The notes beneath the pieces were generated by a model. It had not been told where the DNA came from. It ran no database searches and worked only from the letters and a program-made list of their open reading frames with translations. A stretch of 48,368 nucleotides of DNA, taken from NCBI GenBank assembly GCA_903844825.1, contig CAIMVC010000125.1:1-48368 (forward strand), read 5' to 3'. The stretch's first letter is position 1. The number at the start of each line of letters is the position of its first letter. A program made the position numbers and the translations under genes. This stretch comes from an uncultured Burkholderiales bacterium (lineage in GTDB: Bacteria; Pseudomonadota; Gammaproteobacteria; Burkholderiales; Burkholderiaceae_C). Shown piece after piece: positions 22,690 to 39,605 of the stretch.

Positions 22690-22700
22690 GCCGCAAGCCC

Positions 22701-24435: not shown

Positions 24436-24625
24436 CCCTCAAGCCGCACGCTGCGGGGCCTTGTCTGGCTGCGCTGCGGTCCCCTGGCTGACAGGTGCGG
24501 GGGATTTGCAGACTTAGTCTGAGCCTGCGGTGAAGGGCGCTGTGCCTATTTGCCGCCGGGATGACTCGCCGAGTTGACGGCTGTGTGATCCGACGTTGGC
24601 CCGACAAGGGCCGGGAGTCAAGGCG

Positions 24626-25375
24626 ATGCTGAAAAACAAAGTGGCGCTGGTCACGGGTGCCTCGTCGGGCATTGGCCGGGCGATTGCGCTGGTGCTGGTG
24701 CGCGAGGGGGCCCGGGTGGTGGTGTCTGACGTTGATGCCGAAGGCGGCCAGGCAACCGTGGCCTTGATTCGGGCCGGGGGTGGCGAGGCGATTTTTGAGT
24801 CCGCTGACGTGGCGCAACCTGACCACGCCCGCCACCTGGTGGAGCGCGCGCTGAGCAACTTCGGCCGGCTCGACATCGCCTGCAACAACGCCGGCGTGAG
24901 CGGCGTGAGTGCCCCCACCGCCGACTACCCGCTGGACGACTGGGCGCGGGTGATCAGCACCAATTTGTCGGGCGTCTTCTATGGCATGAAGTACCAGATC
25001 CCCGCCATGCTTCGGACCGGTGGCGGCGCCATCGTCAACATCGCCTCCATTCTTGGAAGTGTCGCGTTTGCCAATGCGCCGGCCTACACAGCGTCCAAAC
25101 ATGGGGTGGTCGGTCTGACGCAAGCGGCGGCCCTGGAGTACGGCGCCCTGGGTGTGCGCATCAACAGTGTCGGCCCCGGCTTCATTCACACACCGATGAT
25201 CAGCCAGTTTGAGGCCGACACGAAAGTGCGCGCCATGCTGGTCGCTCAGCATCCTATCGGGCGGATCGGCCAACCCGAAGAAGTCGCCGAACTGGTGGCC
25301 TGGCTGGCTTCGAGCCGGGCCTCGTTTGTCACCGGGGCTTATTACCCGGTTGACGGCGGTTATCTGGCGCGCTAA
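24626..25375 (+). CDS. Short-chain dehydrogenase/reductase
   Basis: 249 residues from the ATG at 24626; a TTG 30 nt upstream is a weaker alternative. It is a classical SDR: VTGASSGIGRAIA (nucleotide binding, about 10-22), CNNAGVSG (about 88-95), the catalytic Ser in IASILGSVAF, and YTASKHGVVGLT with the catalytic Tyr and Lys. The C-terminal SFVTGAYYPVDGGYLAR is standard. The Asp after the second strand (VVSDVDAEG) favours NAD(H). It stands alone between the gentisate operon and the convergent eleven-gene operon, so its substrate cannot be inferred. Confidence 0.9.
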   Translation: MLKNKVALVTGASSGIGRAIALVLVREGARVVVSDVDAEGGQATVALIRAGGGEAIFESADVAQPDHARHLVERALSNFGRLDIACNNAGVSGVSAPTADYPLDDWARVISTNLSGVFYGMKYQIPAMLRTGGGAIVNIASILGSVAFANAPAYTASKHGVVGLTQAAALEYGALGVRINSVGPGFIHTPMISQFEADTKVRAMLVAQHPIGRIGQPEEVAELVAWLASSRASFVTGAYYPVDGGYLAR

Positions 25376-25493: not shown

Positions 25494-26888
25494 TTAGCGC
25501 GCCCGCATCAGGCCGCTGAGTTCGGCCACCGGTAGCGCGGGGTCGCCTTGCAGCAACAGGCCAATCAGCGCCTGCTGCTGGGCCGGTTCGTAGACCTTGC
25601 CGGTGTTGGCCAGGAACTTGGCGCTGATCTCCCCTGGCGCTGCCGGCCTGTCTGCGCTGCCCTTGACTTGATCAATCCGCTGCGTGATCTGTTGGCCGTT
25701 TTTCAGCCGTATGTCAATTTGCGCCTCGAACTGCTCGGGAAAGTTGGCCCCTGCCAGGGGGGTCCAGCTCATTTTTTGCGCCAGCGCCACGGCCTGGGCG
25801 TTGAGCTCGGGCGCCATGAAGTGTTCGGGTGTGATGGGAATGTCCAGCAGTGCCAGCGCCAGGCAGTAGGGCAGGCTGTACTTGGCTTCATTGGGGGCAG
25901 TAGGTGTTTGTTTGCGCGCCCAGGGCTCGCAGATGATGGGGGCGGCGCCCGCAGGGACCTGGCATTCGAGGCTGACGATGTCGGCGGCCGAACCCCAGAG
26001 CGGCGTGAGCTGCTGCACGCATTCGAGGAAGGGGTGAATGTAGTGGCAGCAAGGAAACAGCTTGAAGGCCGCTTCGCGCACGGTCCAGCGCTGGCCCAGG
26101 CTGGCCAGTTGCTGGCCCAGTGCATCGGCCGCGCCCGGCTCGTCGGTGTAGGTGTTGAACAGGCCAAAGCGGCCTTCGTAGACCGTGGACGGTCCCGTCA
26201 TGCCGGCGCTGGCCAGTTGCGCGGCCATCAGGCCGGCGTGGGCGGCCCAGCCCGGGTGCATGGCCTTGACGGTGGCGCCCTCGCTTAAAAATTCAAAGAT
26301 GCCCGAAGCCTGGCTGCCGGCGATGCCTTGCGCCCATACCCGCTCGCTGCGACTGGCGCCCGCCGCGCTGCTGGCGATCAGGGCCGACACCAGCGCGCCG
26401 CCGACCGACGTCACCTGAAAGCCACGGCGCTGAAAAGCGCCCGGCGCTGCCAGGCCGATGCGCACCAGCACTTCCCAGCCGAGGGTGATCAGGCGCAGCA
26501 TCTGGCCCAGACTGAGCTGGTGTTGTTCGGCTGCGGCCAGGGCCGCCGGCACCAGCACGGCGCTGCCATGCACGATGGAGCCCATGTGGGTGTCGTCGTA
26601 TTCGAGGGCGTGGATGAAGCTGCCGTTGAGCAGCGCCGCGGTGGCGGCGTTGCTGCAGGCGGCGCTGCCAAAGACGCTGCAGCCGTCAGCCTGGGTGTTG
26701 GTACCCAGCAGACTGCGAGACATGCGCGTTTGCACCGCGCCGGCCGACGCCGCCGTGCCCACGCCCAGGGCGTCCAGCGTGTGCAGGCGTGCGAGTTGCA
26801 TCACGTCGGGCGGTATGTCGTGTTCGCGCAGGGACAGCGCGAAGTCGGCGATGCGTTCGGCCAGCGTGAAGGTAGTCGCCGGGCTCAT
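25494..26888 (-). CDS. MmgE/PrpD family protein, canonical motifs
   Basis: 464 residues from the ATG at 26888, 2 nt after the FAD dehydrogenase stop. Family motifs are present: ARLHTLDALGVG near the N-terminus, HALEYDDTHMGSIVH (the DDTH motif) around residue 115, and KLFPCCHYIHP in the C-terminal domain. The family includes 2-methylcitrate dehydratase, cis-aconitate decarboxylase and iminodisuccinate epimerase, which act on di- and tricarboxylates by proton abstraction. It is the last gene of the eleven-gene operon with an ABC importer and amide hydrolases. The specific reaction is unknown. Confidence 0.88.
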   Translation of the reverse strand: MSPATTFTLAERIADFALSLREHDIPPDVMQLARLHTLDALGVGTAASAGAVQTRMSRSLLGTNTQADGCSVFGSAACSNAATAALLNGSFIHALEYDDTHMGSIVHGSAVLVPAALAAAEQHQLSLGQMLRLITLGWEVLVRIGLAAPGAFQRRGFQVTSVGGALVSALIASSAAGASRSERVWAQGIAGSQASGIFEFLSEGATVKAMHPGWAAHAGLMAAQLASAGMTGPSTVYEGRFGLFNTYTDEPGAADALGQQLASLGQRWTVREAAFKLFPCCHYIHPFLECVQQLTPLWGSAADIVSLECQVPAGAAPIICEPWARKQTPTAPNEAKYSLPYCLALALLDIPITPEHFMAPELNAQAVALAQKMSWTPLAGANFPEQFEAQIDIRLKNGQQITQRIDQVKGSADRPAAPGEISAKFLANTGKVYEPAQQQALIGLLLQGDPALPVAELSGLMRAR

Positions 26889-26890
26889 GG

Positions 26891-28291
26891 TCAGACCGCT
26901 CTGGCTTGCTGGATCTCGCGAGCAGCGGCCCTGCCGCTGAGGTAGCCCAGGCCGATGGCTGTGAGCAAGCCGTTGCCCGAGGCGTAGCCTGCAGCACCTT
27001 CGCGGCCGCTGATACCGCCCGCCGCGCCACCGCCGGCAAACAAGTTGGGGATCGGCGTGCCATCGGTCTTGAGCACATGGCCCGCGCTGTCGATGGCCAG
27101 GCCGCCCTGGGTGTGGAACAAGCCTGGCGTGACGCGGCAAATCCAGTAGCTGTTCTGCAGCGGCGCCAGGGCGAACTTGCTGCGTCCCAACGGGTCCTGG
27201 CCCTGGCCGCTGGCGGCCGCGTTGTAGGCCTCGACGGTACGTACCAGGGCGTCGGCTGGCAGCTTGAACAGCGCTGCGAGTTCCTCAACACTGGCGGCAG
27301 ACTTGACGCCGCCTAAGTTGACCAGTTCGCAAAACTCCTCCTCCTTGGAGGCGATCGCTTTCATCTGCTCGTCAAAGATGGCAAACACCTCGCCTTGCTG
27401 CGCCAGCACCAGGCGGGCATAGCCCGAATAGCCCAGGTCTTCATTGCCAAAGCGCTCGCCCTGCGCGTTGACCAAAATGCCGCCTTTTTCAATCGTGGTC
27501 CACGACAGCAGCGAGCCGTGTGGATAAGCCACAGCGGCGTAGCCCTGGTAGGCGCCCATGTTGGCCAGACCCGCGCCGAGCTCGCGCCCCCAGATCACGG
27601 CTTCGCCCTGGCTGCCCAGCGCGCCAAAATACTCGGCACCGGCGATCTCCGGGCAAAACTCGCTGACCAGCGCGCGGTTGCCAGCAAAGCCGTTGCACGC
27701 CAGGATCACCTTGCCGGCCTTGATGCGGCTGGACTCGACGCCCTTGCCGCCGATGTGCGCGCCGATCACGGCGCCCGTCTCGGAGGTGAGCAAGGACTGC
27801 ACGGGGTTGCCGACGGCCAGCGGGATGTCGCGTGCGGCCACGCCCGCGAGCAGGTCATCCATCAGGTCCTGGCCGCGGCGCGAGGTCGGCGCGTGCAGCC
27901 GGGGAATCGTGTGGCCGACGTGGCAGTAATCGGTGATCAGGCTCATGCGTGCGGGCACGCGGTCAACCAGCCACTCGCACAGCTCTGCGCTCATGGCCAC
28001 CAGGGTGTTGCTGACCTGTCCCAGGTCATGCTCGCCGGTGATGCGCAGCAAGTCGGCGACCATGGTGGCCGGGCTGTCCTCGATCTGCGCGGCGCGCTGA
28101 AAGCGGCTGCCCGCGCCCGGAATCGAGCCGGTGCTCAGCGCCGTGTTGCCGCCGGGCTGCTCGCGCTTTTCCACAATGGCGACACTGGCCCCTTCGTCGT
28201 GGGCGGCGATCGCCGCCGTCAGGCCGCAGCCACCGGCACCGATGACGAGCACATCGACTTCCATGTCCCAGGCGTTGGCAGTGGCGTTCAT
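26891..28291 (-). CDS. FAD-dependent dehydrogenase, fumarate reductase flavoprotein family
   Basis: 466 residues from the ATG at 28291 (AAGGAAA ribosome site). The FAD site is DVLVIGAGGCGLTAA (GxGxxG about 18-23). The family C-terminal segment is TQGGLAIDSAGHVLKTDG, then LFAGGGAAGGISG and GYASGNGLLTAIGLG. This architecture occurs in fumarate reductases, 3-ketosteroid dehydrogenases, tricarballylate dehydrogenase and urocanate reductase: it adds or removes hydride across a C=C next to a carboxyl or carbonyl group. It lies between two MmgE/PrpD genes, so a desaturation or reduction of a carboxylate intermediate is likely. No signal peptide or heme domain is present, so it is cytoplasmic. Confidence 0.87.
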   Translation of the reverse strand: MNATANAWDMEVDVLVIGAGGCGLTAAIAAHDEGASVAIVEKREQPGGNTALSTGSIPGAGSRFQRAAQIEDSPATMVADLLRITGEHDLGQVSNTLVAMSAELCEWLVDRVPARMSLITDYCHVGHTIPRLHAPTSRRGQDLMDDLLAGVAARDIPLAVGNPVQSLLTSETGAVIGAHIGGKGVESSRIKAGKVILACNGFAGNRALVSEFCPEIAGAEYFGALGSQGEAVIWGRELGAGLANMGAYQGYAAVAYPHGSLLSWTTIEKGGILVNAQGERFGNEDLGYSGYARLVLAQQGEVFAIFDEQMKAIASKEEEFCELVNLGGVKSAASVEELAALFKLPADALVRTVEAYNAAASGQGQDPLGRSKFALAPLQNSYWICRVTPGLFHTQGGLAIDSAGHVLKTDGTPIPNLFAGGGAAGGISGREGAAGYASGNGLLTAIGLGYLSGRAAAREIQQARAV

Positions 28292-28384
28292 GGTGTTTCC
28301 TTTCGTTGTTGCTGATGACAGGCTGGCGGTGGACCCTGCCGCCTTCAAGCGCCGGCTGGATGCATCCCGTTCATTGCCAGGGGT

Positions 28385-29809
28385 TTAGACCGCTGGCGTG
28401 AAAAATTGATCGACCTGCGCGCGCCAGCTGCGGCTGAGCGCAGCGGCCGTGGCGCTGGCGGCGCAGTCCGCGTGCAGGCGGCGCAGGGTGCTGGTCAGAC
28501 CGGGGGCGGAGGCGTGTGACAGCGCTTGGATCTTGGCCCACAGGTCCTCGTCGTCAAAGGGTCGCTCGGGACCGCCGCGAGCGCTCATGCATTGGGCGCT
28601 GTAGCTGCGGCCGTCGGTGCCCTGCAGCGTCAGGAAGGCCGGGCGGTCGTGCGGCCACGGCAACTCCTGCGCCACCAGACGCATGTCGACACGGTGGCGC
28701 AGGCGCGCCACGCGCTCGTCGTCCAGGGCTTCGGTGCTGAAGGCTTCGGCCCCGCCGTGGCCATAGACCAGCGATGCGGCGAGTGCGTGCGGCATGGAGA
28801 ACTTGGCGCCCAGCGTGGTGCGGGGCTGGGTGTCGGTCAGACTCATGCCCGAACGATGGGTCTGGATCTGAATCCGGTCGATGGTTGCGCCGCCCTGCAA
28901 CGCCGGGTGCTGCTGCAAAATTTCTTGCATCGCCTCGATCGCCGAATGCGCGTACTGGCAGCAGGCGTTGACCTTGTGGTAGCCCGAGGCCACAGCCCAG
29001 TCCAGGCCGAGCTCGGCACTCAATTGCTCGGGATGGGCCTGGCTGCCCAGGGTTTCGACGTACACATCATGCGGCGTTTGCGGCAGACCGCAGATGCCCG
29101 CCTGCGCCCATTCGATGGCTAAAAAGCCGTTGGAAATGCCGGCGGCGGCCCACGCGTTGCGAATCAGCGCACCCCGAATCGCCTGGCTGTAGGGGCCAAC
29201 CACGCCCAGCGTGCTGGCGTTGGACAGGGCGTCGAGCATCAGATCGGCGGGCAAGCGCCGCAGGAAACCGATCGCGGCCGTGGCGCCTACCGTGTTGAAG
29301 AGCGCGTGAGGATGAATTTTCAGCGCGTCAAAGGGCCAGGCTCTGGCAAAACGCGCGCTTACCTCATAGGCCAGCGTGCTGGCACGAATGACTTCAGCCG
29401 TGCTCAGTTGCTCACTCTCGGCAATCGCCAGCAAAATGGGCAGGGTGTACAGGCCGGCGTGGCAGACCGCCTTGCGATAGCCCTCGTCGAGCTCGTTCCA
29501 GCTGCCCGACAAGGCATTGCCCAGCGCCGCCTGCAGCACGCTCAGTTGCGGCCGACCATGGCGCATCAAGCTGGCCGCAGCGCCCGCTTTGCCCAAGTTG
29601 GCCAGGCTGGCCGCGCTGAGCTTGTCGTGGCTGGCCCTGATTTGCGGCTCGTCTTGCGCTGACAGCATGGCCGCCAGGTCATCGGCCAGGACCATCACAG
29701 TGGCTTGCCGCACGCTGGCGGGAATGTCGCCGAGCTCCTGCCGAACCGCCCAGTTCACGAGCGCGTGCAGCCCGTCGCCCGCTGCCTGTCGCAATTGATC
29801 GTTGTTCAT
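28385..29809 (-). CDS. MmgE/PrpD family protein, divergent active-site motif
   Basis: 474 residues from the ATG at 29809, 4 bp after the livF stop. It is recognisably MmgE/PrpD: VMVLADDLAAML in place of the usual LDxLG helix, long helical domain, and YHKVNACCQYAHSAIEAM matching the KxxxCCxxxH region. However, where the family has DDTH this protein reads WNELDEGYRKAVCHAG. This differs from the other MmgE/PrpD of the operon and suggests another substrate or reaction, for example an epimerase or isomerase rather than a dehydratase. That reading is inference. Confidence 0.82.
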   Translation of the reverse strand: MNNDQLRQAAGDGLHALVNWAVRQELGDIPASVRQATVMVLADDLAAMLSAQDEPQIRASHDKLSAASLANLGKAGAAASLMRHGRPQLSVLQAALGNALSGSWNELDEGYRKAVCHAGLYTLPILLAIAESEQLSTAEVIRASTLAYEVSARFARAWPFDALKIHPHALFNTVGATAAIGFLRRLPADLMLDALSNASTLGVVGPYSQAIRGALIRNAWAAAGISNGFLAIEWAQAGICGLPQTPHDVYVETLGSQAHPEQLSAELGLDWAVASGYHKVNACCQYAHSAIEAMQEILQQHPALQGGATIDRIQIQTHRSGMSLTDTQPRTTLGAKFSMPHALAASLVYGHGGAEAFSTEALDDERVARLRHRVDMRLVAQELPWPHDRPAFLTLQGTDGRSYSAQCMSARGGPERPFDDEDLWAKIQALSHASAPGLTSTLRRLHADCAASATAAALSRSWRAQVDQFFTPAV

Positions 29810-29813
29810 AGAT

Positions 29814-30497
29814 TTAAAAAAGATGCCACAAACTTTCCTGCGCCAGCAGCTGCTGGCTCGGTCCGTCAAAAATAATCCGCCCCGACTTGAGGACGACGGC
29901 CCGCTCGACTTGCTTGAGCGTGGCTTGAACGTTTTGCTCGACCATCACCACCGTCGTGCCTTCGCTTTGGTTGATCGCGCGCATTGACGCCAGCACGTCG
30001 CGCACGATGATGGGCGCCAGGCCGGTGGTCGGCTCGTCGAGCAACAGCAGCCGGGGACGCGTCATCAGCGCCATGCCCAGCGCCAGCATTTGTTGCTGCC
30101 CGCCGCTCAGCGAGCCGGCGAGTTGCTGCTGCCGCTCCTTGAGGATAGGAAACAGCGCATACACCGTGTCGGCATAGGCCGGGTCGTGCATCAGGCCGGC
30201 AATGCGCAGGTTGCGCTCGACCGACAGTTCCCGAAACACGTTATGGCCCTGCGGCACAAAACCGATGCCCTGGCGCACGTTCAGGTGCACCTGCCCGGCC
30301 ACGATCGCCTGGCCCTTGTAGCGAACAGAACCGCTGATGTCGGCCATGTCGCCCACACAGCTCTTGAGGAGCGTGGTCTTGCCCGCACCGTTGTGGCCAA
30401 AAATACCGACCCGTTCGCCTTCCGCGATCGTCAGTGACAACTCATGCAGGACCTGCAGCTTGGCGTAGTACGCGTTGACGTTTTCAAGTTGCAGCAC
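29814..30497 (-). CDS. livF: Branched-chain amino acid-type ABC transporter ATPase (LivF)
   Basis: 227 residues. Walker A FGHNGAGKTTLLKS (about 34-47), signature LSGGQQQMLALG and Walker B LLLLDEPTTGLAP are intact. The small LivF-type ATPase pairs with LivG in high-affinity amino-acid/amide (HAAT) importers. It lies 35 bp after livG and 4 bp before an MmgE/PrpD gene, so importer and catabolic genes are one transcription unit. Confidence 0.93.
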   Translation of the reverse strand: MLQLENVNAYYAKLQVLHELSLTIAEGERVGIFGHNGAGKTTLLKSCVGDMADISGSVRYKGQAIVAGQVHLNVRQGIGFVPQGHNVFRELSVERNLRIAGLMHDPAYADTVYALFPILKERQQQLAGSLSGGQQQMLALGMALMTRPRLLLLDEPTTGLAPIIVRDVLASMRAINQSEGTTVVMVEQNVQATLKQVERAVVLKSGRIIFDGPSQQLLAQESLWHLF

Positions 30498-30532
30498 CAG
30501 GGCATCTCCTTGGGGTTGGGGTTAAACGCCGC

Positions 30533-31291
30533 TCACGCGCCGAAATACAACTGAGACAGGGTCTTGCTCGACAGCAGGGTCTCGACGCTGCCGCGCTCGA
30601 GAATCTTGCCGCTGGCCATGAACACGGCGCTGTTGCACAGGTCCTTGATGAAAGACACGTTGTGCTCGACCACGCACACGGCCCGTCCGGCTTCGGCTTC
30701 CTGACGGACGATGGCTTTCATCGTGTCGTAGGCCTGGCCTTCGACGCCGGCCATCGGCTCGTCGAGCAACAGGCAGTCGCCGTCGTTCATGAGGGCGCGC
30801 GCCAGTCCCACCAGTTTTTGCTGGCCGAAGGTGATGTCGTTGACGCTGGCGTGGGCAATCGCCTCGAGCTTCATGCGGCCCAGAATGGTCATGGCGCGTT
30901 CGCGCAGCGCCAGGTTGGCCTGCGCCACCCGCCTGGGGTGAAAAATGATCTGCGACAGATGCTCGCCCGGGTAATTGCGCGGCGCCACCAGCATGTTTTC
31001 GAGCACGCTCATGGTGGCAAACAGGCGCATGTTCTGCCAGGTGCGCGCCACACCCAGGCGCGCCCGGTGGTGCAGCGGCAGGCCGTCGAGCGACTGGCCA
31101 GCCACCGAAATGCTGCCCGAGTCCATCGGGTAGACACCGGAGATCAGGTTAAACAGCGAGGTCTTGCCGGCGCCGTTCGGGCCGATCAGGCCGAGGATTT
31201 CCCCGCGCTGGATGTCGATCGAAATGTGGTCGGCCACGACGATACCGCCGAAGCTCTTGCACACCTCTTTGAGGGAGATCATGGTGCTCAT
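30533..31291 (-). CDS. livG: Branched-chain amino acid-type ABC transporter ATPase (LivG)
   Basis: 252 residues. Walker A IGPNGAGKTSLFNLI (about 36-50), a TFGQQKLVGLARAL segment in the signature region (the usual SxGQ reads FGQQ, common in LivG), and Walker B DCLLLDEPMAGV. The LivG-type insertion LARTWQNMRLFATMSVLENM is present. It energises the LivHM permease with LivF. The start lies 13 bp after the livM stop. Confidence 0.93.
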   Translation of the reverse strand: MSTMISLKEVCKSFGGIVVADHISIDIQRGEILGLIGPNGAGKTSLFNLISGVYPMDSGSISVAGQSLDGLPLHHRARLGVARTWQNMRLFATMSVLENMLVAPRNYPGEHLSQIIFHPRRVAQANLALRERAMTILGRMKLEAIAHASVNDITFGQQKLVGLARALMNDGDCLLLDEPMAGVEGQAYDTMKAIVRQEAEAGRAVCVVEHNVSFIKDLCNSAVFMASGKILERGSVETLLSSKTLSQLYFGA

Positions 31292-31304
31292 GCCTGTCGG
31301 CTCC

Positions 31305-32165
31305 TCATGACTGACGCTTGACCGGGGCCACCAGACCTTGCGGACGCAGGAACAAAAAGATGATCACCAGCAAGGTGAAAATCACGCCCTGCAGCGGCGC
31401 CATGACGCTGGGCGGCAGGTTCAAAAAGCTGATCGCTTGCGGCAGCAGCAGCAGCAGCACCGTGCCCACCACCGGGCCGAGCTGCGAGCCCATGCCGCCC
31501 ACCACCACCATGGTCAGCAGCATGGACGACAACATGATTTCGAATTGATCGGGGCTGAGGTATTGGTAGTAGTAAGCGTAGATGCCGCCAGCCAGCCCGG
31601 CAAAGCCCGAGCCGATCGCAAAAATCGCCAGCTTGATCTTCATGGCGTTGCGACCCAGCGCAGAAAACGCCAGTTCATCGTCGCGCATGGCCGTGATGAC
31701 CAGGCCGTAGGGCCCCTTGAGCAGCCAGCGGATGGCCAGTACCACGGCGGCCGCCATCAGGCAGGAAATGGCGGCAAAGATGGCGCTGCGGTTGGGCCCT
31801 TCCACCACGTTGGGAATATTGCCCAGCCCGCTGGCACCGCCCGTCAGGCTCAGGTGCTTGATGACCTCCAGCAGGCCGAGCTGAAAGCCGATGCTGGTGA
31901 TCAGCAGGTAGTCCCCCGAGATGCGCAGGGACGGCAGCGACAGCATGATCGACGCAGCGAAGGCCAGGGCTGTTCCGGCCAGCACGGCCAGCACCGGGTG
32001 CGTGCCGAAATGAATCGCCAGCAGGCCGGTGGTGTAGGCGCCGAGGGCAAAGAAAATCGGGTGGGCAATGCTGATCAGGCCCCCAAAACCGATGATCAGG
32101 TTAAAGCTCGAACTCAGGATCACGTAGATCCCGATCATCACCGCCAGGGAAATGAGATATTCCAT
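31305..32165 (-). CDS. livM: ABC transporter permease (LivM family)
   Basis: 286 residues and about eight to nine hydrophobic segments. The LivM pattern GFGGLISIAHPIFFALGAY near residues 27-45 and the cytoplasmic coupling loop AMRDDELAFSALGRNAMKIKL are clear. It forms the inner-membrane channel with LivH. It lies 28 bp after the livH stop in the same operon. Confidence 0.93.
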   Translation of the reverse strand: MEYLISLAVMIGIYVILSSSFNLIIGFGGLISIAHPIFFALGAYTTGLLAIHFGTHPVLAVLAGTALAFAASIMLSLPSLRISGDYLLITSIGFQLGLLEVIKHLSLTGGASGLGNIPNVVEGPNRSAIFAAISCLMAAAVVLAIRWLLKGPYGLVITAMRDDELAFSALGRNAMKIKLAIFAIGSGFAGLAGGIYAYYYQYLSPDQFEIMLSSMLLTMVVVGGMGSQLGPVVGTVLLLLLPQAISFLNLPPSVMAPLQGVIFTLLVIIFLFLRPQGLVAPVKRQS

Positions 32166-32193
32166 ATTCAGAGTCCTTGTGCTGTGCGGCGCA

Positions 32194-33102
32194 TCATTGT
32201 TTTTTGCCGATGGCGATGAGTTGCCTGAACTTTTGCAGGTTCACGCCTTGCGGGAAAAACAGGATCGTGACGAACAAAAAGACGTACAGGATCAAGCCCT
32301 GCCACTGCGATGGAATCACCAGGATGCTCAGGCCCTGAATCAGAGACAGGCCAACGGCCGCCAGGGCGGCGTTGAAAATCCGGCCCATGCCGCCAAGCAG
32401 GGTCGAGATGACGGCAAACAGCATCATCTGCAGGGGCGTGTTGGGGATGATGGAGGCGCGCGAGCCAAACAGGTACATGCCGGCGGTGACCAGTACCGCA
32501 GCAATGACAAAGGTGATGAAGTAAGCGCGTTTGACGTTGATGCCGTAAAGGCGCGAGAGTTCCGGGTTGTCGGCCACGGCCGCCATGAACTGACCGTCGC
32601 GTGAGCGCGCGATGAAAAAATAAAGCAGGCTCAGCAAGGTGCCGGTGACCGCGACTGCCTGCAGGTCCCAGTTGCTGATGACGATGCCGTGAAAGATGTT
32701 GACCTTGGACATGATGCTGCGCGTCAGGGCCACGGGCTCGGTGCCAAAGATCATGGCCAGCAAATAGGCCATGAATTCGGAGACCACCAGGGTGAAGATG
32801 AAGAAGGTCAGGTTGGGCGAGTTTCTGGCGCGCAGCGTCTGCAGGCCATAAATGTCCATCAGCACGCTCACGGCGATGGTGCCCACCAGCCCGATGCCGA
32901 CACTGGCGAGCAAGGGCAGGCCCAGCCAGGTGTGCATGGCGTACATGAGGTAGAACGACAAGCCCATGATGCCGGCCTGCGCAAAGTTCCAGACCTTGAC
33001 GACCTTGAGCACCAATGAAAAAGCGACCGTGAACAAAACGGCATAGGTCGAGGCTGCCAGCCCCGTCCAGACGATCTGCAGCAAGATGGATAGATCGATC
33101 AC
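32194..33102 (-). CDS. livH: ABC transporter permease (LivH family)
   Basis: 302 residues from the ATG at 33102. LivH landmarks are LTFFIFTLVVSEFMAYL, LYGINVKRAYFITFVIAAVL (the coupling region) and LGGMGRIFNAALAAVGLSL. About eight hydrophobic segments are visible. It is preceded by a 110-bp gap after livK that contains a strong palindrome (33141-33154). Confidence 0.92.
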   Translation of the reverse strand: MIDLSILLQIVWTGLAASTYAVLFTVAFSLVLKVVKVWNFAQAGIMGLSFYLMYAMHTWLGLPLLASVGIGLVGTIAVSVLMDIYGLQTLRARNSPNLTFFIFTLVVSEFMAYLLAMIFGTEPVALTRSIMSKVNIFHGIVISNWDLQAVAVTGTLLSLLYFFIARSRDGQFMAAVADNPELSRLYGINVKRAYFITFVIAAVLVTAGMYLFGSRASIIPNTPLQMMLFAVISTLLGGMGRIFNAALAAVGLSLIQGLSILVIPSQWQGLILYVFLFVTILFFPQGVNLQKFRQLIAIGKKQ

Positions 33103-33140
33103 ACGGATCCCTTACAAGATAGCTTGATGCTTTGGTGCCA

Positions 33141-33154
33141 GGCCAGGCCTGGCC
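33141..33154. promoter_or_regulatory. 14-bp perfect palindrome between livK and livH
   Basis: GGCCAGGCCTGGCC lies in the 110-bp gap following the binding-protein gene. In RNA its extended form (CCAGGCC...GGCCGGG) could fold. Such elements often let the binding protein be made in excess over the membrane subunits by stabilising the upstream transcript or partly terminating it. Inferred from position. Confidence 0.45.
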
Positions 33155-33212
33155 GGGCTGGGCGGTCACTGCGCTTGCCGCAGATCCCGCCCGTGCTCGT
33201 TGGCTGCTGGCT

Positions 33213-34373
33213 TTACTTGATGGTGGCCAGTGGAACGAACTGACCCTTGTCAACGGTCAGCAGATACACCGGTTTGGAGACGCGGTGATCGTCACCCACA
33301 GTCAGGCCGCCCGTCATTGGCAGTTCGAAGTTCTTGGCGGTGATCAATGCCTTGCGCATGTTTTCGCCGGTGGCAGGCAGCTTGTTTTTCTCTACCCATT
33401 TGTACAGCTCGGCCACCAGGTACGGGCCGTCATACAGGTACTGGGTGTAGGGCAGGCCGTTGGGCACGCGCTTTTCGGTGTCTTGCCAGCGCTTGATGAA
33501 GGGGCCAACATTGGGGTTGTCGCTGGCCGCGGGTGCCAGCGACGTCACGATCAGGCCTTCAGCGGCTGCGCCGAGTTGCTCGATCACCTTGGGGTTGTAG
33601 CCGGCCGAGTAGGTCGACACGCGCTGTGTCAGGCCGAGCTGGCGCATTTGCGCAATCACTTGCGGCAAGTCAGACACCAGACCCTGAATATGGATCATCT
33701 CGGGGTTGGCTGCGCGCACCTTGAGCAGCGCGCCGGTGAACTCCGTGGCCTTGGTGTCATAGGCTTCGTAAGCCACGACCTTGCCACCGGCTTTTTCAAA
33801 CACGCTCTTGTAGATGGCTGCACCTTCGACACCGCTGTCGTTGTTGATGTACATGACGGCAGCGGTCTTTTTGCCCAGCGCCGTGAAGGTGTACTTGGCC
33901 AGGCCGCTCACGTCGACTTCGGCCAGCGGGAAGGTGGTGTAGACATAGTCGCCGAGCTTGGCGATGTCGGGCGAGTTGGCACCCACGCTCAGCTCGAGCA
34001 CTTTTTCGCGATTGGCGATAGGCGCCACGGCCTTGACCACGGCGCTCCAGGCGGTGATGAACACCGGCACCTTGTCAACGCTGGTCAGCCGTTTGACGGC
34101 ATTGATGCCCAGTTGCGGATCGGCCTGGGTGTCGAGCACGATCATCTCGAGCTGTTTGCCGTTGACGCCACCCTTGGCATTGATGTCGGCCACGGCCCAT
34201 TGCGCGGCCTTGACCTGGTCGGCGCCGTAGAGCGCTTGCGAGCCCGACAAAGGCATGGCCAGGCCAAACTTGAGGGTCTCCTTGGCTTGTGACCAGGCGG
34301 CGGGCGACAGGGTCGCACCACCGATGAGTAGCGCTGACAGGGCCAGCAAATGACGTCGATTGGAAGGTTTCAC
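33213..34373 (-). CDS. livK: ABC transporter substrate-binding protein (LivK/HAAT family)
   Basis: 386 residues from a GTG at 34373, chosen because GGAG lies 6 nt upstream; the longer frame to 34457 has no ribosome site and would precede the leader with non-leader sequence. The signal peptide is KPSNRRHLLALSALLIGG onward, cut near AAWSQA. The mature part begins TLKFGLAMPLSGSQALYG, typical of type-I periplasmic binding proteins, and continues NAVKRLTSVDKVPVFI. It delivers the ligand to LivHM. Such proteins bind amino acids, amides, urea or aromatic acids. The neighbouring amidohydrolases suggest an amide-containing ligand (inference). Confidence 0.92.
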   Translation of the reverse strand: MKPSNRRHLLALSALLIGGATLSPAAWSQAKETLKFGLAMPLSGSQALYGADQVKAAQWAVADINAKGGVNGKQLEMIVLDTQADPQLGINAVKRLTSVDKVPVFITAWSAVVKAVAPIANREKVLELSVGANSPDIAKLGDYVYTTFPLAEVDVSGLAKYTFTALGKKTAAVMYINNDSGVEGAAIYKSVFEKAGGKVVAYEAYDTKATEFTGALLKVRAANPEMIHIQGLVSDLPQVIAQMRQLGLTQRVSTYSAGYNPKVIEQLGAAAEGLIVTSLAPAASDNPNVGPFIKRWQDTEKRVPNGLPYTQYLYDGPYLVAELYKWVEKNKLPATGENMRKALITAKNFELPMTGGLTVGDDHRVSKPVYLLTVDKGQFVPLATIK

Positions 34374-34453
34374 TTTTTTCTCCAGGCTTGGGGGAACACA
34401 CAAACAAAAACTAAGGACATGCGGGCGCGGGCCGGGCCTTGAGCCGGGCGGGT

Positions 34454-35128
34454 TCAAATTTTTCTCAGGGTCTCGGTGATCTCGGCGGTCGGTGCCACGT
34501 CGGCATATTTCTCGGACATGTCAAACAGGTTGACGGCGTGCGAGACATGGCTGCGGTCGTAGACCGCGTCTTGTGGCACCAGCACCTTGAAGTTCAGCGC
34601 AAAAGCATCGACCACGCTGGCGCGCACGCAGCCGCTGGTGCTGCAACCGGTGACCACCAGGGTATCGGCTTGCAGGTCGATGAGGTGGCTGGTCAGTGCC
34701 GTGGCAAAAAAGGCGCTGGGGTGTTTTTTAGGCAGCAGGACGTCGCCGGGCCGGGGTGCAATTTCGCGCACGAAGTCGTAGCCATTGGCTGCGATGTTCA
34801 TGATGGCCGGAACTTTTTCGGCCAGGCGCCCGCCTTCGTGCTGGTTCTTCGGCGCCACATGCGGGTACAAGACAGGCCAGCCGCGTTGGCGAAATTCATC
34901 GACCAGCAGCCGGATATTGTCAATCGCCTTCCAGGCCACCTCGCCGCAGCTGGTGGGGAACTCCTTGACGGCTTCAAAAAATGGCATGGGCGTGGTGCCG
35001 GCAGTGCGGTACTGCACGTCAATGATCAGCAGGGCCGGGCGCTTGCCAACGCCACTCGGTCGGCCAAAACCTGCAGCGCGGTAGGCGCGTTGCTCTTCGT
35101 CGCTGATGATGCCGTCCCATGGTCTCAT
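34454..35128 (-). CDS. Isochorismatase-fold cysteine hydrolase (N-carbamoylsarcosine/maleamate amidase-like)
   Basis: 224 residues from the ATG at 35128, 1 nt after the amidohydrolase stop. The catalytic triad of the cysteine hydrolase group is visible: Asp 37 in LLIIDVQY, Lys 134 or 135 in VLLPKKHPSAF, and Cys 167 in VVTGCSTSGCVRAS. The C-terminal NLFDMSEKYADV is typical of N-carbamoylsarcosine amidase and maleamate amidase relatives. These hydrolyse a carbamoyl or amide group to ammonia. Directly after a cyclic amidohydrolase it probably hydrolyses the linear product of ring opening. Confidence 0.87.
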   Translation of the reverse strand: MRPWDGIISDEEQRAYRAAGFGRPSGVGKRPALLIIDVQYRTAGTTPMPFFEAVKEFPTSCGEVAWKAIDNIRLLVDEFRQRGWPVLYPHVAPKNQHEGGRLAEKVPAIMNIAANGYDFVREIAPRPGDVLLPKKHPSAFFATALTSHLIDLQADTLVVTGCSTSGCVRASVVDAFALNFKVLVPQDAVYDRSHVSHAVNLFDMSEKYADVAPTAEITETLRKI

Positions 35129-35129
35129 G

Positions 35130-36521
35130 TCATACCCTTGGCTGTTGCGCGTCTGGCTTCGCCAGCGAGCGAAAAAGATAGTGGCCATAGCCGGGCTGCC
35201 CGGTGATCTTGCCGTTCGCCATCACGGTCTGGCCCCGCACAATGGTTTGCACCGGCCAGCCGGTCAGGGTCTGCCCTTCGTAGAGGCTGTAGTCCGAGTA
35301 AGAACCCAACTCGGCCGGGTTCACGCTGCGCGCCAACTGGAGGTCGACCAAGGTGATGTCGGCGTCCGAGCCGATGGCCAGGCTGCCCTTGCCCGGTACA
35401 TTGAAAATCCGGGCCGGGGCCGCGGTCAGCACTTCAGCGATGCGCTTGAGGCTCAGCCGCCCTTTGTGATAGCCCTCGTGCAGCAGCACTGGCAAGATGG
35501 TGGCGGTGCCCGGGAAGCCTTGCGAGGCCAGCCACAGCGGTTTTTCTTTGGTGGCCCGTTTGCGCGGCACGTGGTCCGAGGCGACCACGTCGATCGAGCC
35601 GTCGCGCAGGCCTTCCCACATGGCTTCGACGTCATCGGCGCTGCGAAATGGCGGGTTGGCCTTGCCCAGGCTGCCGTTGTCGGCATCTTCGGTGTGGGTC
35701 AGGTAGTGCGGGCAGGTTTCGACAAAGACCTTGTCGTAGCGGCCACGCCATCGGCGCACTTCGTTCAGCGCCATGCGCGTGCTCAGATGCGGGATGTAGA
35801 TTTGTGCGCCCAGGTGCTCGGCAAAGTACATGGCGCGTACACAGCTCTCGGCTTCGGTGAAAGCTGGCTTGGACAAGGACCAGTCCTTGAGCGTGGAGCG
35901 TCCCTCGGCCTGAAAGCGGGCGCGGATGCGGTTGACGATCTCGATGTTTTCGGTGTGGCAGACGATCTTGACTTCGCCCAGCGCGGCCGCTGCCGCCAGC
36001 AACTCGTACAGGTAGCCGTCATCGGTGCCGTCCAGGCCCAGGTAGCGGCCTTCCTCGCCTTTGAAGTTCATGAAGTACTTGAACGAAGTCACGCCATAGG
36101 TCTTGACGTAGTCGGCCAGATCCCGGATGTGCTCTTCGTTGGCGGTGCTGAAGTGAAAGGCGTAGTCCACATAAGCGCGGGTTTTGGCGTAGCCCTGCTC
36201 GCGCTCGTAGACGTCGGCGTAGGCCTCGTTGTTCAGAAAGTAGCCCAGCACCGTGGTGAAGCCGCCCTGCGCGGCGTAGATCGTTTCGGTCTCGTATTCG
36301 GTGATTTTTTCGCCAAAGCCGAAATGCACATGCGCGTCGATCAAACCGGGAAACAGATGCAGGCCGTGGGCCGACTTTTCAGGCACCGAGGCGTCCACCG
36401 GGGTGCCGGGCGCCATGTGGGCGGCAATTTTGCCGCCGCGTATGAGCAGGTCTGTGGGTGTGCCGTCGGTGCTGGCATCCACCAGGGTGCCGCCGCGCAG
36501 CACGTAATCGCTTGTCGTCAT
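35130..36521 (-). CDS. Cyclic amidohydrolase (dihydroorotase/hydantoinase/allantoinase group)
   Basis: 463 residues. A full binuclear zinc site can be read: His 64 and His 66 in IDAHVHF, the carboxylated Lys 148 in SFKYFMNF, His 189 in IVCHTENI, His 245 in IYIPHLSTRM and Asp 316 in VVASDHVPRK. The flanking beta-sandwich (LRGGTLVDAS and AIGSDADITLVDL) is standard. These enzymes open cyclic amides, imides or ureides. The sequence does not select among hydantoin, dihydropyrimidine, allantoin or another ring. It starts 10 bp after cobW and is followed by a cysteine amide hydrolase, the usual two-step order for ring opening then amide cleavage. Confidence 0.88.
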   Translation of the reverse strand: MTTSDYVLRGGTLVDASTDGTPTDLLIRGGKIAAHMAPGTPVDASVPEKSAHGLHLFPGLIDAHVHFGFGEKITEYETETIYAAQGGFTTVLGYFLNNEAYADVYEREQGYAKTRAYVDYAFHFSTANEEHIRDLADYVKTYGVTSFKYFMNFKGEEGRYLGLDGTDDGYLYELLAAAAALGEVKIVCHTENIEIVNRIRARFQAEGRSTLKDWSLSKPAFTEAESCVRAMYFAEHLGAQIYIPHLSTRMALNEVRRWRGRYDKVFVETCPHYLTHTEDADNGSLGKANPPFRSADDVEAMWEGLRDGSIDVVASDHVPRKRATKEKPLWLASQGFPGTATILPVLLHEGYHKGRLSLKRIAEVLTAAPARIFNVPGKGSLAIGSDADITLVDLQLARSVNPAELGSYSDYSLYEGQTLTGWPVQTIVRGQTVMANGKITGQPGYGHYLFRSLAKPDAQQPRV

Positions 36522-36531
36522 GGCGCCTTCC

Positions 36532-37566
36532 TTAAAAACATTGGTCCAGCTCCTGCAGGGTGCGTGGCCGGCTCGACGGCTCGGTGATCAGAAGGGCCCG
36601 CAGGCTGGCCTGCAGCCAGGCCGGGTCCAGCTCGGCGCCTATGCACACCAGGCGACCCCGGGGATCGCTATCGGGCCAGGCCGACAACACGGTCGGCGAA
36701 TGAAACACCTGACCCACGCCCTGAATCAGCACAAAGGGCTGTTTGTCCTGGACCTGCAGCAAGCCCTTGCAGCGCAGCAATTGCCGGCCAAAGCGATGCA
36801 CTAGCAAATGCCACCAGGCCGAAATGCCGGCCCAGGTGGGTTGCACCTCCAGGAAAGTGCTCCATGAGCTGATGCTGCTGGCGTGCGCAAAAACCTGGCT
36901 CGCGCCGCCCTGACCGACCACCCGGTACTCCCCCACGGATGGCAGCAGTTGCAGGCGGCGGTCGTTGGTCTGCCCGGTGAACACCGCGCCGGCGGCCTGA
37001 CCCTGACGTGACTCGCTGACCTGCGCCCGCGCGTTGATCTGGTGCAAAAGCGCCCGCAGCGCCTGCAGGTGGGCGGGTTCGACCAGGTCGGCCTTGGTGA
37101 TGACCAGATGCTCGGCCACGGCGGCCTGCCGCTGCGACTCGGTGTGCTGCACCAGTTGTTCGGCGCCCTGCACAGCGTCCACGGTCGTAATGACTTGGCC
37201 CAGGCGGTAGTGCTGCATCAGCGTGCGGTCGCCCAGCAGTGCGTGCAAAACGGGGAGCGGGTCGGCCAGCCCGGTGGTTTCGACCACCACGCGGCGCAGC
37301 GGCGGGCGCCCCAGCTGGCTGGCCAGGCTCTTGATTTCCAGCAAGGTCTCGCGCAGCGAGTGCGTGACGGTGCAGCACAGGCAGCCGGAGTCCAGCAGGT
37401 AGACGTTGTCGCTGAGCTCCTGGTAGAGCAGTTGGTCCAGGCCGATGGCTCCGAATTCGTTGACGATCACGGCCGTGTCGGCCCCCGCCTCCAGGCGCAG
37501 GAAGGCGTTCAGCAGCGTGGTCTTGCCGCTGCCTAAAAAGCCTGTGAGCAGATCAAACGCAATCAT
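36532..37566 (-). CDS. CobW/COG0523 GTPase, putative metallochaperone
   Basis: 344 residues. Walker A GFLGSGKT (9-16), the metal-binding GCLCCTV motif (Cys 62, 64, 65) and the guanine-specificity ITKADLVEP are present. A CobW C-terminal domain follows. COG0523 proteins deliver zinc or other metals to target enzymes. As the first gene of the operon, 10 bp before a predicted binuclear zinc amidohydrolase, its likely client is that enzyme. It is divergent from an IclR regulator. Confidence 0.88.
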   Translation of the reverse strand: MIAFDLLTGFLGSGKTTLLNAFLRLEAGADTAVIVNEFGAIGLDQLLYQELSDNVYLLDSGCLCCTVTHSLRETLLEIKSLASQLGRPPLRRVVVETTGLADPLPVLHALLGDRTLMQHYRLGQVITTVDAVQGAEQLVQHTESQRQAAVAEHLVITKADLVEPAHLQALRALLHQINARAQVSESRQGQAAGAVFTGQTNDRRLQLLPSVGEYRVVGQGGASQVFAHASSISSWSTFLEVQPTWAGISAWWHLLVHRFGRQLLRCKGLLQVQDKQPFVLIQGVGQVFHSPTVLSAWPDSDPRGRLVCIGAELDPAWLQASLRALLITEPSSRPRTLQELDQCF

Positions 37567-37620
37567 TTTTTGGGCGGAAGAGCGGCGATGTGGCAGTTTT
37601 TGGGCTGATTTTTTTATTAC

Positions 37621-37647
37621 GTCAGGCTAAATTCTTTTTCGCCTGAC
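37621..37647. promoter_or_regulatory. Inverted repeat in the cobW-iclR divergent region, candidate operator
   Basis: GTCAGGC-N13-GCCTGAC is a perfect 7-bp inverted repeat whose centres are two helical turns apart. It lies between the divergent cobW and iclR starts (164-bp gap). On the minus strand TAATAA (37619-37614), a possible -10 for the cobW operon, directly abuts it. This placement suits binding by the adjacent IclR protein; binding is inferred. Confidence 0.55.
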
Positions 37648-37730
37648 AACTCTAGCATAAGATCATTAGCTGGAAAGCGCCATCGTTTATCTTCGGTAAG
37701 AAACTTGACAACGCGAGCCACACCCTGCCC

Positions 37731-38603
37731 ATGACCTCACCCCCACCCAAGTCCAAGCCCAAGCCCGTTAAGCCCGCCAAGGCCGTCAAGGCCTCGACGG
37801 GGTCTGTGACGCGCAAGTCCAACTCGGTGGAGGCCATCAAGGTGGCCATCCGCATGCTCAATGAAATGGCGTTGGCCCGGCGCGCCATGCGCATCACCGA
37901 GTTGGCCGACAAGATGGGCGAGACCAAGCCTCGCATCCATCGGCATCTGGCCACGCTCAAGGAGATGGGGCTGGTCGAGCAAGAGCAGGCCACCGAGCGC
38001 TACCGGCTGGGCTGGCGCCTGTTTCAGCTCGGCGAGGCCGCTGGCGCGCAATTCGACCTGCGTTACCGCGCCGAGCCCTACCTGATCAAGCTGCGCGACG
38101 AGTTGCGCCAGACCGCGGTGCTGGCCATCCCGATCAATGACCAGCCCATGGTGATTGCCACGGCCGACAACATCCATGCCCGCATCTGCATCTCGGTCAA
38201 GCCGGGCAACCGGCCGCTGCCGCATTGCTCGGCCTTTGGCCGTCTGACGCTGGCCTATTCGTCGGCCGAGACGCAGCACTTGCTGTTGTCGGGGGCGCTG
38301 CCCGCCGAGACCGAAGACTCGCTGGTCGACCGCCAGCGCGTGCTGGACCGGCTGCCGCTGATCCGCCAGCGGCTGTATGACTACGCCGCCGGCGAAATGA
38401 TGGTGGGTATCAACACCGTGGTGGTGCCCATTTTTCGGGATGACGATGTGCTGGCCGGGGCGATCGGCATCGTCGGCTCGGTACAAGAGATTCCGAGCCC
38501 GCCACACCCCGCGCAAATCGCCTTGCTGCAAACCTATGCGCAAGAGCTGTCGATCCAGTTAAACAGCCATGCCTATGAGCGCATGCGCCGCCAAGGCGTG
38601 TAA
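37731..38603 (+). CDS. IclR-family transcriptional regulator
   Basis: 290 residues. The first 30 residues are an unusual Lys/Pro/Ala-rich tail (SKPKPVKPAKAVKAS), probably disordered and DNA-contacting. Then come the winged helix-turn-helix (VEAIKVAIRMLNEMAL, MRITELADKMGETKPRIHRH, LVEQEQATERYRLGWRLF) and the effector domain, with PLPHCSAFGRLTLAYS and GINTVVVPIFRDDDVLAGAIG. It is divergent from the eleven-gene ABC/amidohydrolase operon and 96 bp upstream of the prpB-like gene, so it may control both. Confidence 0.9.
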   Translation: MTSPPPKSKPKPVKPAKAVKASTGSVTRKSNSVEAIKVAIRMLNEMALARRAMRITELADKMGETKPRIHRHLATLKEMGLVEQEQATERYRLGWRLFQLGEAAGAQFDLRYRAEPYLIKLRDELRQTAVLAIPINDQPMVIATADNIHARICISVKPGNRPLPHCSAFGRLTLAYSSAETQHLLLSGALPAETEDSLVDRQRVLDRLPLIRQRLYDYAAGEMMVGINTVVVPIFRDDDVLAGAIGIVGSVQEIPSPPHPAQIALLQTYAQELSIQLNSHAYERMRRQGV

Positions 38604-38699
38604 TTCAAGGCGTGCAAGAAACTCAACCCAGCCGAGCGTGACGGCCCGCCGTTTTATTTATCCCATCAACCCCACCCTGACACCCCCAGGACCACGACC

Positions 38700-39605
38700 A
38701 TGACCCCGAACACGACGCTGACAAACTCCCCTGGTCAACGCTTTCGCCTCGCCCTGCAGGAAGAAAAGCCGCTGCAAATTGTGGGCACCATCAACGCCAA
38801 CCACGCCTTGCTGGCCCGCCGCGCCGGTTACCGCGCCATTTATTTATCGGGTGGCGGCGTGGCGGCGGGCTCGCTGGGCCTGCCCGATCTGGGCATCAAC
38901 ACGCTCGACGATGTGCTCACCGATGTGCGCCGCATCACCGACGTGTGCGACACCCCGCTGCTGGTGGACGTCGACACCGGCTTCGGCCCGAGCGCCTTCA
39001 ACATCGCCCGCACCGTCAAGAGCCTGATCAAGTTTGGCGCCGCCGCCTGCCACATTGAAGACCAGGCCGGTGCCAAGCGCTGCGGCCATCGCCCGGGCAA
39101 GGAAATTGTGTCCACGCAAGAAATGGTGGACCGCATCAAGGCCGCTGTGGACGCCCGCACCGACGCCGCCTTTTTCATCATGGCCCGCACCGATGCCATC
39201 GCCAGCGAAGGCGTTGACGCCGCGCTCGAACGCTCGGCCCGCTTTGTCGAAGCCGGCGCTGACGCCATCTTTGCCGAAGCCGCCTACGACCTGCCGACCT
39301 TCGGCCGCTTTACCGCCACGCTCGGGGTGCCGGTGCTGGCCAACATCACCGAGTTCGGGCAGACCCCGCTGTTCACGCTCGAGCAACTGCGCTCGGTTGG
39401 CGTGGGCATGGTGCTCTACCCGCTGAGTGCTTTCAGGGCCATGAACAAGGCCGCCGAATCCGTCTATGACGCCATTCGCCGCGACGGCACCCAGCAAGCG
39501 GTGCTGGGCGCCATGCAAACGCGCGAAGAACTCTACGAGCGCATCGGCTACCACGCCTTTGAAAGCAAGCTCGACGCGCTCTATGCACAGCGCAAGCAGC
39601 CCTGA
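38700..39605 (+). CDS. prpB: 2-methylisocitrate lyase-type C-C lyase (PrpB)
   Basis: 301 residues. It matches PrpB along its whole length: [19 protein letters not shown] (about 48-66), the metal site [10 protein letters not shown] (Asp 90 and 92), and the catalytic loop [13 protein letters not shown] with Cys 128. [14 protein letters not shown] and [14 protein letters not shown] follow. PrpB cleaves 2-methylisocitrate to succinate and pyruvate. No methylcitrate synthase (prpC), acnD or prpF is nearby. The neighbours are an IclR regulator and a divergent operon with two MmgE/PrpD genes, so a related alkylmalate or methylisocitrate-like intermediate is also possible. Confidence 0.88.

Follow-up and report, generated by a model that had tools for sequence, protein, structure and literature searches.

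A candidate operon for cyclic imide catabolism in an uncultured Burkholderiales bacterium

The window analysed here consists of 48,368 nucleotides of contig CAIMVC010000125.1 (assembly GCA_903844825.1), from an uncultured Burkholderiales bacterium of the Burkholderiaceae_C. It contains a cluster of eleven minus-strand genes, led by a CobW gene, and two divergent plus-strand genes; with somewhat better than even confidence, we read it as a regulated catabolic operon for an undescribed cyclic imide pathway. The first three genes of the run encode a CobW/COG0523 GTPase (36532..37566; Pfam cobW, PF02492, 138 bits, and CobW_C, PF07683), a cyclic amidohydrolase of the ring-opening type from the hydantoinase/allantoinase/dihydropyrimidinase superfamily (35130..36521; assigned by NCBIfam scores and conserved residues), and an isochorismatase-fold amidase of the maleamate amidase / N-carbamoylsarcosine amidohydrolase type (34454..35128, ATG at 35128; PF00857). 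These are followed by an importer comprising a LivK-type periplasmic binding protein (33213..34373, GTG start at 34373; PF13458, 202 bits), LivH-type (32194..33102) and LivM-type (31305..32165) permeases, and LivG-type (30533..31291) and LivF-type (29814..30497) ATPases. The run ends with a first MmgE/PrpD-family protein with a diverged active site (MmgE1, 28385..29809; PF03972 94 bits, PF19305 92 bits), a FAD_binding_2 flavoenzyme that is possibly a (tri)carboxylate dehydrogenase (26891..28291, ATG at 28291; PF00890, 158 bits), and a second MmgE/PrpD-family protein retaining most family catalytic residues (MmgE2, 25494..26888; PF03972, 178 bits, and PF19305).

The plus-strand genes are an IclR-family regulator (37731..38603; PF01614 and PF09339) and, 96 bp behind it, PrpB, a methylisocitrate lyase (38700..39605; NCBIfam prpB and PRK11320). 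A palindromic operator-like site, TCAGGC-n13-GCCTGA, lies between the IclR and CobW genes (37622..37646, minus strand). The open reading frame map and the Pfam and NCBIfam profiles agree with the initial annotation in the placement of the eleven co-oriented genes, in their families and in the ten intergenic gaps, which range from 1 to 110 bp with starts at 35128, 34373 and 28291. LivH, LivM, LivG and LivF were named from their open reading frames and annotated orthologues rather than from a profile scan; their same-genus orthologues share 79-85%, 84-86%, 83-88% and 79-85% identity, respectively, and orthologues at 61-75% are annotated as branched-chain amino acid ABC permeases or ATPases. Among the matches listed in an NCBIfam scan of nine window proteins, PrpB alone exceeds a curated equivalog cut-off.

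The amidohydrolase carries all six metal ligands (H64, H66, K148, H189, H245 and D316) in each of 72 aligned sequences, the window and 71 loci, confirming the complete zinc site noted at the outset; the superfamily pattern of HxH, carboxylated Lys, two His and Asp is likewise present in 72/72. Residues F153, N289 and R320 are invariant, W330 occurs in 71 sequences and R159 in 70, and because of these (near-)invariant positions the aligned proteins form, by sequence, one subfamily. F153 occupies the position of a Tyr in D-hydantoinase. Among the best 25 of 45 NCBIfam families, the protein stays below the cut-offs for D-hydantoinase (273 vs 393 bits), allantoinase (245 vs 358) and the dihydroorotase family pyrC_multi (226 vs 279). 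CobW probably acts as a zinc metallochaperone for this enzyme. In the amidase, the Asp-Lys-Cys triad seen earlier is retained as D38 and C168 in 59/59 aligned sequences and K136 in 57/59, together with the TSGCVR motif, whose Arg is found in 59/59. Its best solved relatives are 4l07, 3ot4/3uao and 26st; they include maleamate-amidase-type structures, and 4l07 and 3uao are presumably maleamate amidases.

The two MmgE/PrpD proteins fall short of the NCBIfam cut-offs for PrpD, 2-methylcitrate dehydratase (34 vs 950 and 22 vs 575 bits). MmgE1 has an invariant set of its own, consisting of E106, D108, E109, R217, N218, W220, K279 and H288 in 26/26 aligned sequences. MmgE2 retains D98, D99, H107, K208, H211, K276, H282 and H285 in 23/23 and has Gln158 (22/23) at the position of a His in cis-aconitate decarboxylase; its best solved relatives are B. 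subtilis IRG1, IDS-epimerase and cis-aconitate decarboxylase. For the FAD enzyme, scored against the best 25 of 76 NCBIfam families, two identities were rejected. It is not a flavocytochrome c fumarate reductase (246 vs 285 bits), since Tyr replaces Arg402 in 29/29 aligned sequences, and it is not the tricarballylate dehydrogenase TcuA (155 bits against a cut-off of 369). The catalytic roles of Arg402 and of the other residues compared are assumed here.

The importer and the enzymes are closely linked. Window-type LivK (E<=1e-60) occurs in 6/199 genomes (its own, G015, G037, G051, G066 and G177), in each case beside the amidohydrolase, so an importer conserved apart from the enzymes, the outcome that would have separated them, was searched for in 199 genomes and found in none. 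The reverse case is represented by G058, with an amidohydrolase and no LivK. LivK misses the NCBIfam binding-protein cut-offs for UrtA (48 vs 493 bits) and LIV (98 vs 477 bits). Five same-genus regions have an IclR gene of 76-88% identity pointing away from CobW, and the palindrome between the two genes is kept in an alignment of 12 sequences. It has a single match in the window and none in 100 shuffles. A matrix built from ten sites matches above 17 bits in 23/83 sequences, 11 of which did not contribute to it; the 17-bit limit was our choice, the shuffle maximum being 12.8 bits with one simple shuffle per locus. The palindrome adjoins livK in Ottowia, Variovorax (L069) and Variovorax PBL-E5. 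We propose that IclR would govern the operon through this putative operator in the shared promoter region.

The amidohydrolase has a match at E<=1e-60 in 8/199 genomes, its own included. Its orthologues comprise five same-genus proteins of 85-86% identity and one of 67% from another family; G018 carries a 36% paralogue. Four same-genus regions (L021, L022, L024, L025) contain all eleven genes and IclR in identical order. The fifth (L023) has IclR, CobW, amidohydrolase and amidase followed by a PrpB-like gene, and lacks LivKHMF and MmgE. In G177, from another family, the window's genes are present but rearranged (L026), as they are in L068. A wide contig scan for amidohydrolase homologues returned the best 80 of 158 loci, of which the 70 whose amidohydrolase segment reaches 44% identity or more served as the homologous-locus set. 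CobW is found in 62/70 of these, the amidase (at least 55% identity) in 57, the FAD enzyme in 29, LivK (at least 55% identity) in 25, any MmgE/PrpD in 24, the PrpB family in 21, an AcnA-type aconitase in 6 and a LeuC/homoaconitase type in 3. These counts are affected by locus length, contig ends and near-duplicates (L041/L043; L083 and L087 from one metagenome-assembled genome, MAG), and many loci end just past the last MmgE. The complete eleven-gene set recurs in 20/70 loci, in the window's order in 17 and in a different order in L060, L068 and L069. Because all eleven genes recur in this way, their arrangement is a conserved functional unit and not chance, which bears out the earlier claim that importer and enzymes belong to one system.

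Further loci show how the set varies. L045 keeps importer, CobW, amidohydrolase and amidase, with MmgE and the FAD enzyme missing. L092, from a MAG binned as Bacillota and tallied separately from the 70 (its amidohydrolase lies just below the 44.0 identity limit), carries consecutively amidase, amidohydrolase, PrpB-like gene, LivKHMGF, MmgE1, FAD enzyme and MmgE2; CobW is absent and the PrpB-like gene sits between amidohydrolase and livK. Nine distant loci (at most 36% identity; L097, L099-L106) gave 0/9 with CobW, amidase, MmgE, FAD enzyme, AcnA, LeuC or PrpB, and two of them, L097 and L102, hold weak Liv-type genes (27-45%). AMP-ligases, acyl-CoA dehydrogenases and alpha/beta hydrolases recur near several loci and were excluded from the unit, as their position is not fixed.

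These data also bear on whether the cluster is a set of neighbours of mixed function, with importer, imide hydrolysis and tricarboxylate metabolism serving separate substrates. The variability of partners speaks for this, as does the commonness of MmgE, Bug and Liv families in Burkholderiales; many loci are without MmgE, FAD enzyme or PrpB within the locus DNA examined. We nevertheless give this explanation little probability: the set persists after rearrangement, across phyla and in a paralogous system while control loci are empty, no LivK lacking an adjoining amidohydrolase was found among 199 relatives, and a common operator adjoins livK in Ottowia and Variovorax.

The paralogous system emerged from 20 genomes with a subfamily amidohydrolase, which yielded 49 matches: 20 of the subfamily, five at 44-45% and 24 at 35% or below. 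All five mid-identity paralogues, carried by five of the 20 genomes, lie in a cluster of PrpB-like / AcnA - amidohydrolase - amidase (39-42%) - CobW, accompanied by a Bug-type binding protein (5/5), the FAD enzyme (4/5, 48-52%) and MmgE2 (3/5, 31-33%). Five of the 24 low-identity paralogues were fetched (L180-L184), and 0/5 had these partners within 1.5 kb. Plasmids of Shinella and Antarctobacter carry PrpB-like / GntR / AcnA - amidohydrolase - amidase with no CobW in the stretch; in Halomarina the amidohydrolase, amidase and FAD enzyme are accompanied by a CoA transferase and a CoA-ester lyase; and L078 has a LeuC and PrpB-like pair. The recurring logic is a ring hydrolase, a half-amide hydrolase, a tricarboxylate hydro-lyase (MmgE/PrpD, AcnA or LeuC) and a PrpB-type lyase, and the transporters are swappable: Liv, Bug, TRAP and MFS types replace one another among loci. 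That non-homologous or only distantly related proteins with the same chemistry take the place of the hydro-lyase and the lyase is our best argument for the reaction type. The organism's own genome has a second acid-lyase module on contig C31 (L149, 12315-16457), whose LeuC-type aconitase is 68% identical to its L078 counterpart and whose PrpB-like lyase groups 100/100 with the one in L078; a FAD enzyme (38%) and GntR and AtuA genes are in the same module. On contig C2 (L150, 3282-6033), genes for a FAD monooxygenase, a PrpB-like protein and an isochorismatase follow one another and may form a further operon for ring degradation.

The plus-strand lyase had been described as PrpB-type. The family stands, but the label was too weak, as the protein exceeds the cut-offs for true methylisocitrate lyase (NCBIfam prpB 408 vs 354 bits; PRK11320 517 vs 353 bits). 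It keeps the canonical active-site motifs KRCGH / NITEFG, and this suggests that the acid cleaved is 2-methylisocitrate or very similar. The PrpB-like proteins of other loci keep K-[RK]-C-G-H and are elsewhere divergent from canonical PrpB. Proteins with 83-85% identity to the window's PrpB are encoded directly behind the amidase in Ottowia (L060) and Variovorax (L069, L096), and on a Hydrogenophaga plasmid prpB likewise follows the amidase immediately. A tree of 57 PrpB-family proteins unites the PrpBs of the window, L060, L069 and L096 in a single clade (100/99) that falls within canonical PrpB. On this phylogeny and position, PrpB is part of the unit, in line with its earlier inclusion in the system. 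In G202, G204, G212 and G218, among 21 genomes searched, the last MmgE is followed at a distance of up to about 1 kb by a divergent PrpB-like gene; that the PrpB-like clade is exclusive to the cluster was rejected, as homologues of 64-73% occur elsewhere in six genomes (G199, G200, G204, G207, G208, G216).

We also considered the window's prpB as a remnant of a methylcitrate cluster. PrpB matches (E<=1e-60) occur in 40/149 relatives, and 25/29 fetched prpB loci of relatives (window excluded) have a conserved extra gene beside prpB that is not beside the window's; in the one member tested (L111) it is PrpC over cut-off. A prpC adjoining prpB, the mark of a methylcitrate-cycle locus, is lacking in the window. 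The remnant explanation was set aside, given the missing prpC neighbour and a tree that joins the protein to cluster-linked PrpBs. In the own genome no PrpC or AcnD exceeds its cut-off; for PrpC there is just a fragment of 86 bits at the edge of a contig, plus one weaker match. This absence carries little weight because the genome is 88.9% complete.

As a whole, the gene set probably imports a small nitrogen-containing ring, opens and deaminates it and splits the resulting acid into ordinary nutrients. We postulate that LivKHMGF would import the ring, and that the zinc amidohydrolase, assisted by CobW, would open the imide to a half-amide, from which the amidase would release ammonia to leave an aconitate- or maleate-like di- or tricarboxylate. 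Where the ring is saturated, as in a succinimide, the FAD enzyme would add a double bond. The MmgE/PrpD proteins would dehydrate and hydrate the acid to a 2-methylisocitrate-like hydroxy acid, and PrpB would cleave this to pyruvate and succinate or a homologue. A sequence from imide through half-amide, unsaturated tricarboxylate and hydroxy acid to pyruvate and an acid would account for every conserved part, the placing of a zinc chaperone beside a zinc enzyme among them. The protein families, their linkage, the conservation of the operator and the intact active sites were established by computation; each reaction, the order of the steps and the class of substrate are inferred. The initial annotation had proposed catabolism of a cyclic amide or ureide; the catabolic unit stands, PrpB included, and we infer that its substrate can be narrowed toward an imide. 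An imide fits better than a ureide because the cluster has a tricarboxylate hydro-lyase and a methylisocitrate-type lyase, where a ureide would yield an amino acid. Our best guess is a substituted maleimide or succinimide.

A ureide or hydantoin system is the somewhat unlikely alternative. Ring opening of a 5-substituted hydantoin or dihydropyrimidine by the amidohydrolase would yield an N-carbamoyl amino acid, from which the amidase, as a carbamoylase, would liberate CO2 and NH3; the acidic amino acid so formed would be processed by the MmgE/PrpD proteins and the FAD enzyme. This scheme accounts for the first two enzymes as well as the imide reading does. Among solved structures the amidohydrolase is closest to allantoinase and L-/D-hydantoinase, and the amidase is about equally near an N-carbamoylsarcosine hydrolase. 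Homologues of a racemase-family gene (PF01177, Asp/Glu/hydantoin racemase) occur in 5/70 loci. The surroundings of the Shinella paralogue include a class III aminotransferase, and those of the Variovorax PBL-E5 cluster an L-serine ammonia-lyase. However, the amidohydrolase misses the hydantoinase and allantoinase cut-offs, no aminotransferase or ammonia-lyase appears among the recurring neighbour clusters named by profile (a subset of the clusters), and AcnA, LeuC and PrpB are left unexplained, as PrpB and AcnA act on hydroxy-tricarboxylates. Three of the PF01177 homologues were tested as maleate isomerase or hydantoin racemase and rejected, with no NCBIfam match. HyuA-type (caprolactamase-like) genes lie near the amidohydrolase in five loci (L047, L056, L065, L076, L077), with HyuB in four.

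A six-membered imide of the citrazinate type, a glutaconimide carboxylate, would instead give aconitamide and then aconitate; the citrazinate-to-aconitate route belongs to isonicotinate breakdown. AcnA in the paralogous systems and in the 6/70 loci is in keeping with it, as is the similarity of the FAD enzyme to tricarballylate dehydrogenase, sub-threshold as that score is. We consider this substrate very unlikely: the lyase is of the PrpB type, not isocitrate lyase, and no xanthine-dehydrogenase-type pyridine hydroxylase is found among the named neighbour clusters, the molybdoenzyme in four loci being of the DMSO-reductase family. No such gene set was found in the literature, judged by title and abstract start, and citrazinate was set aside, as literature searches for it gave nothing or papers on other subjects. 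In those four loci (L059, L064, L072, L088) the molybdoenzyme adjoins the amidohydrolase, and genes of the M20 peptidase and ABC permease types come next; AcnA is present as well in L072 and L088. Within the AcnA-type variant, a gene of the 2OG-Fe(II) oxygenase family (c37) is found repeatedly (L061, L073, L087, L098).

Several observations weigh against the imide pathway. The closest solved relatives of both hydrolases, described above, and the racemase-family genes fit ureides too, and we know of no characterised enzyme in this amidohydrolase subfamily. MmgE1 is without part of the usual MmgE/PrpD catalytic set and the FAD enzyme is missing the Arg of fumarate reductase. Within the locus DNA examined, 40/70 loci have no hydro-lyase, 41/70 no FAD enzyme and 49/70 no PrpB-family gene, and the window-type prpB does not adjoin the cluster in same-genus relatives. 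Although abstracts in the literature count imidases among the cyclic amidohydrolases, the cyclic imidase HxnM and the P. putida imide hydrolase have a different fold (PMC9304392); the imidase role therefore draws on genomic context, with no support from homology to these.

Comparison with known systems reveals partial likenesses. The imidase and half-amidase route of the Blastobacter type likewise proceeds by ring hydrolysis and then half-amide hydrolysis to a dicarboxylate; the window adds tricarboxylate hydro-lyases, FAD enzyme, PrpB lyase, importer, CobW and IclR. Anaerobic nicotinate fermentation in Eubacterium barkeri employs enamidase, dimethylmaleate hydratase and dimethylmalate lyase. 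It resembles our system in an amidohydrolase-fold ring opening and in an aconitase/LeuC-family hydratase and PrpB-superfamily lyase at its end (compare L078), but is without a half-amide amidase, whereas the window side has MmgE/PrpD or AcnA, a canonical PrpB and an importer. The 2-methylcitrate cycle (PrpB, PrpC, PrpD/AcnD) shares canonical PrpB and PrpD-family and AcnA-type hydro-lyases; in the window prpB has no adjoining prpC, and entry would be an imide, not propionyl-CoA and oxaloacetate. The window's amidase is related to the maleamate amidase NicF of aerobic nicotinate degradation, but no pyridine hydroxylase or maleate isomerase is among the eleven operon genes. At the end of the Aspergillus nidulans nicotinate pathway an imide is likewise opened by HxnM, which resembles peptidoglycan deacetylase/PuuE, and the amide is then hydrolysed by HxnN, which resembles FAAH1; as far as the consulted sections go, that pathway ends in hydroxyglutarate with no PrpB or PrpD step mentioned, whereas the window has both families (PMC9304392). 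Each enzyme family is known, and the earlier statement that no described pathway has this exact set holds for the open-access literature, where we found none of this composition; to our knowledge the combination is undescribed there.

Beside the cluster, on the plus strand, lies a gentisate pathway (19589-25375). Two of its members, a 3-hydroxybenzoate 6-monooxygenase and a maleylacetoacetate isomerase-family gene, exceed their cut-offs, and two others, a gentisate 1,2-dioxygenase relative and a fumarylacetoacetate-hydrolase family gene, fall below theirs; the stretch also contains a Bug-type gene and an SDR. On plasmid 3 of Variovorax sp. PBL-E5 (L137), a strain from linuron-contaminated soil, a few kb separate the complete eleven-gene set from genes for catechol meta-cleavage.

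The natural substrates might be imides derived from tetrapyrroles, such as hematinic acid, 3-methyl-4-alkyl-maleimides and the matching succinimides from heme, chlorophyll and bilin breakdown, an identity we regard as distinctly unlikely. Every protoheme ring carries one methyl beside a second substituent R, and therefore opening and deamidation would give 2-methyl-3-R-maleate, and hydration 2-methyl-3-R-malate. PrpB-type cleavage would then release pyruvate and R-CH2-COOH, which is glutarate from hematinic acid. Some loci are titled after lakes (Erken, Baikal), and hematinic acid and maleimides are reported from senescent leaves and lake sediments (PMC7318184). A hemC gene with Pfam porphobilinogen deaminase domains lies 8 kb from the amidohydrolase cluster on the Shinella plasmid pcSHIWSC3 (L139, 19670-20602); this proximity may be chance, and no evidence ties the genes directly to tetrapyrroles. 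If true, this substrate assignment would provide the final step that is missing from the recycling of pigments by bacteria of fresh water and soil.

The module recurs in Beta- and Alphaproteobacteria and in a Bacillota MAG, is plasmid-borne in some cases and exists in a second, paralogous version, all of which suggests that the nitrogenous compound it degrades is natural and common. Current annotations hide the pathway because its parts are labelled dihydroorotase, isochorismatase, branched-chain amino acid transporter and methylisocitrate lyase. The conserved operator, the subfamily residues and the importer make the substrate directly testable.

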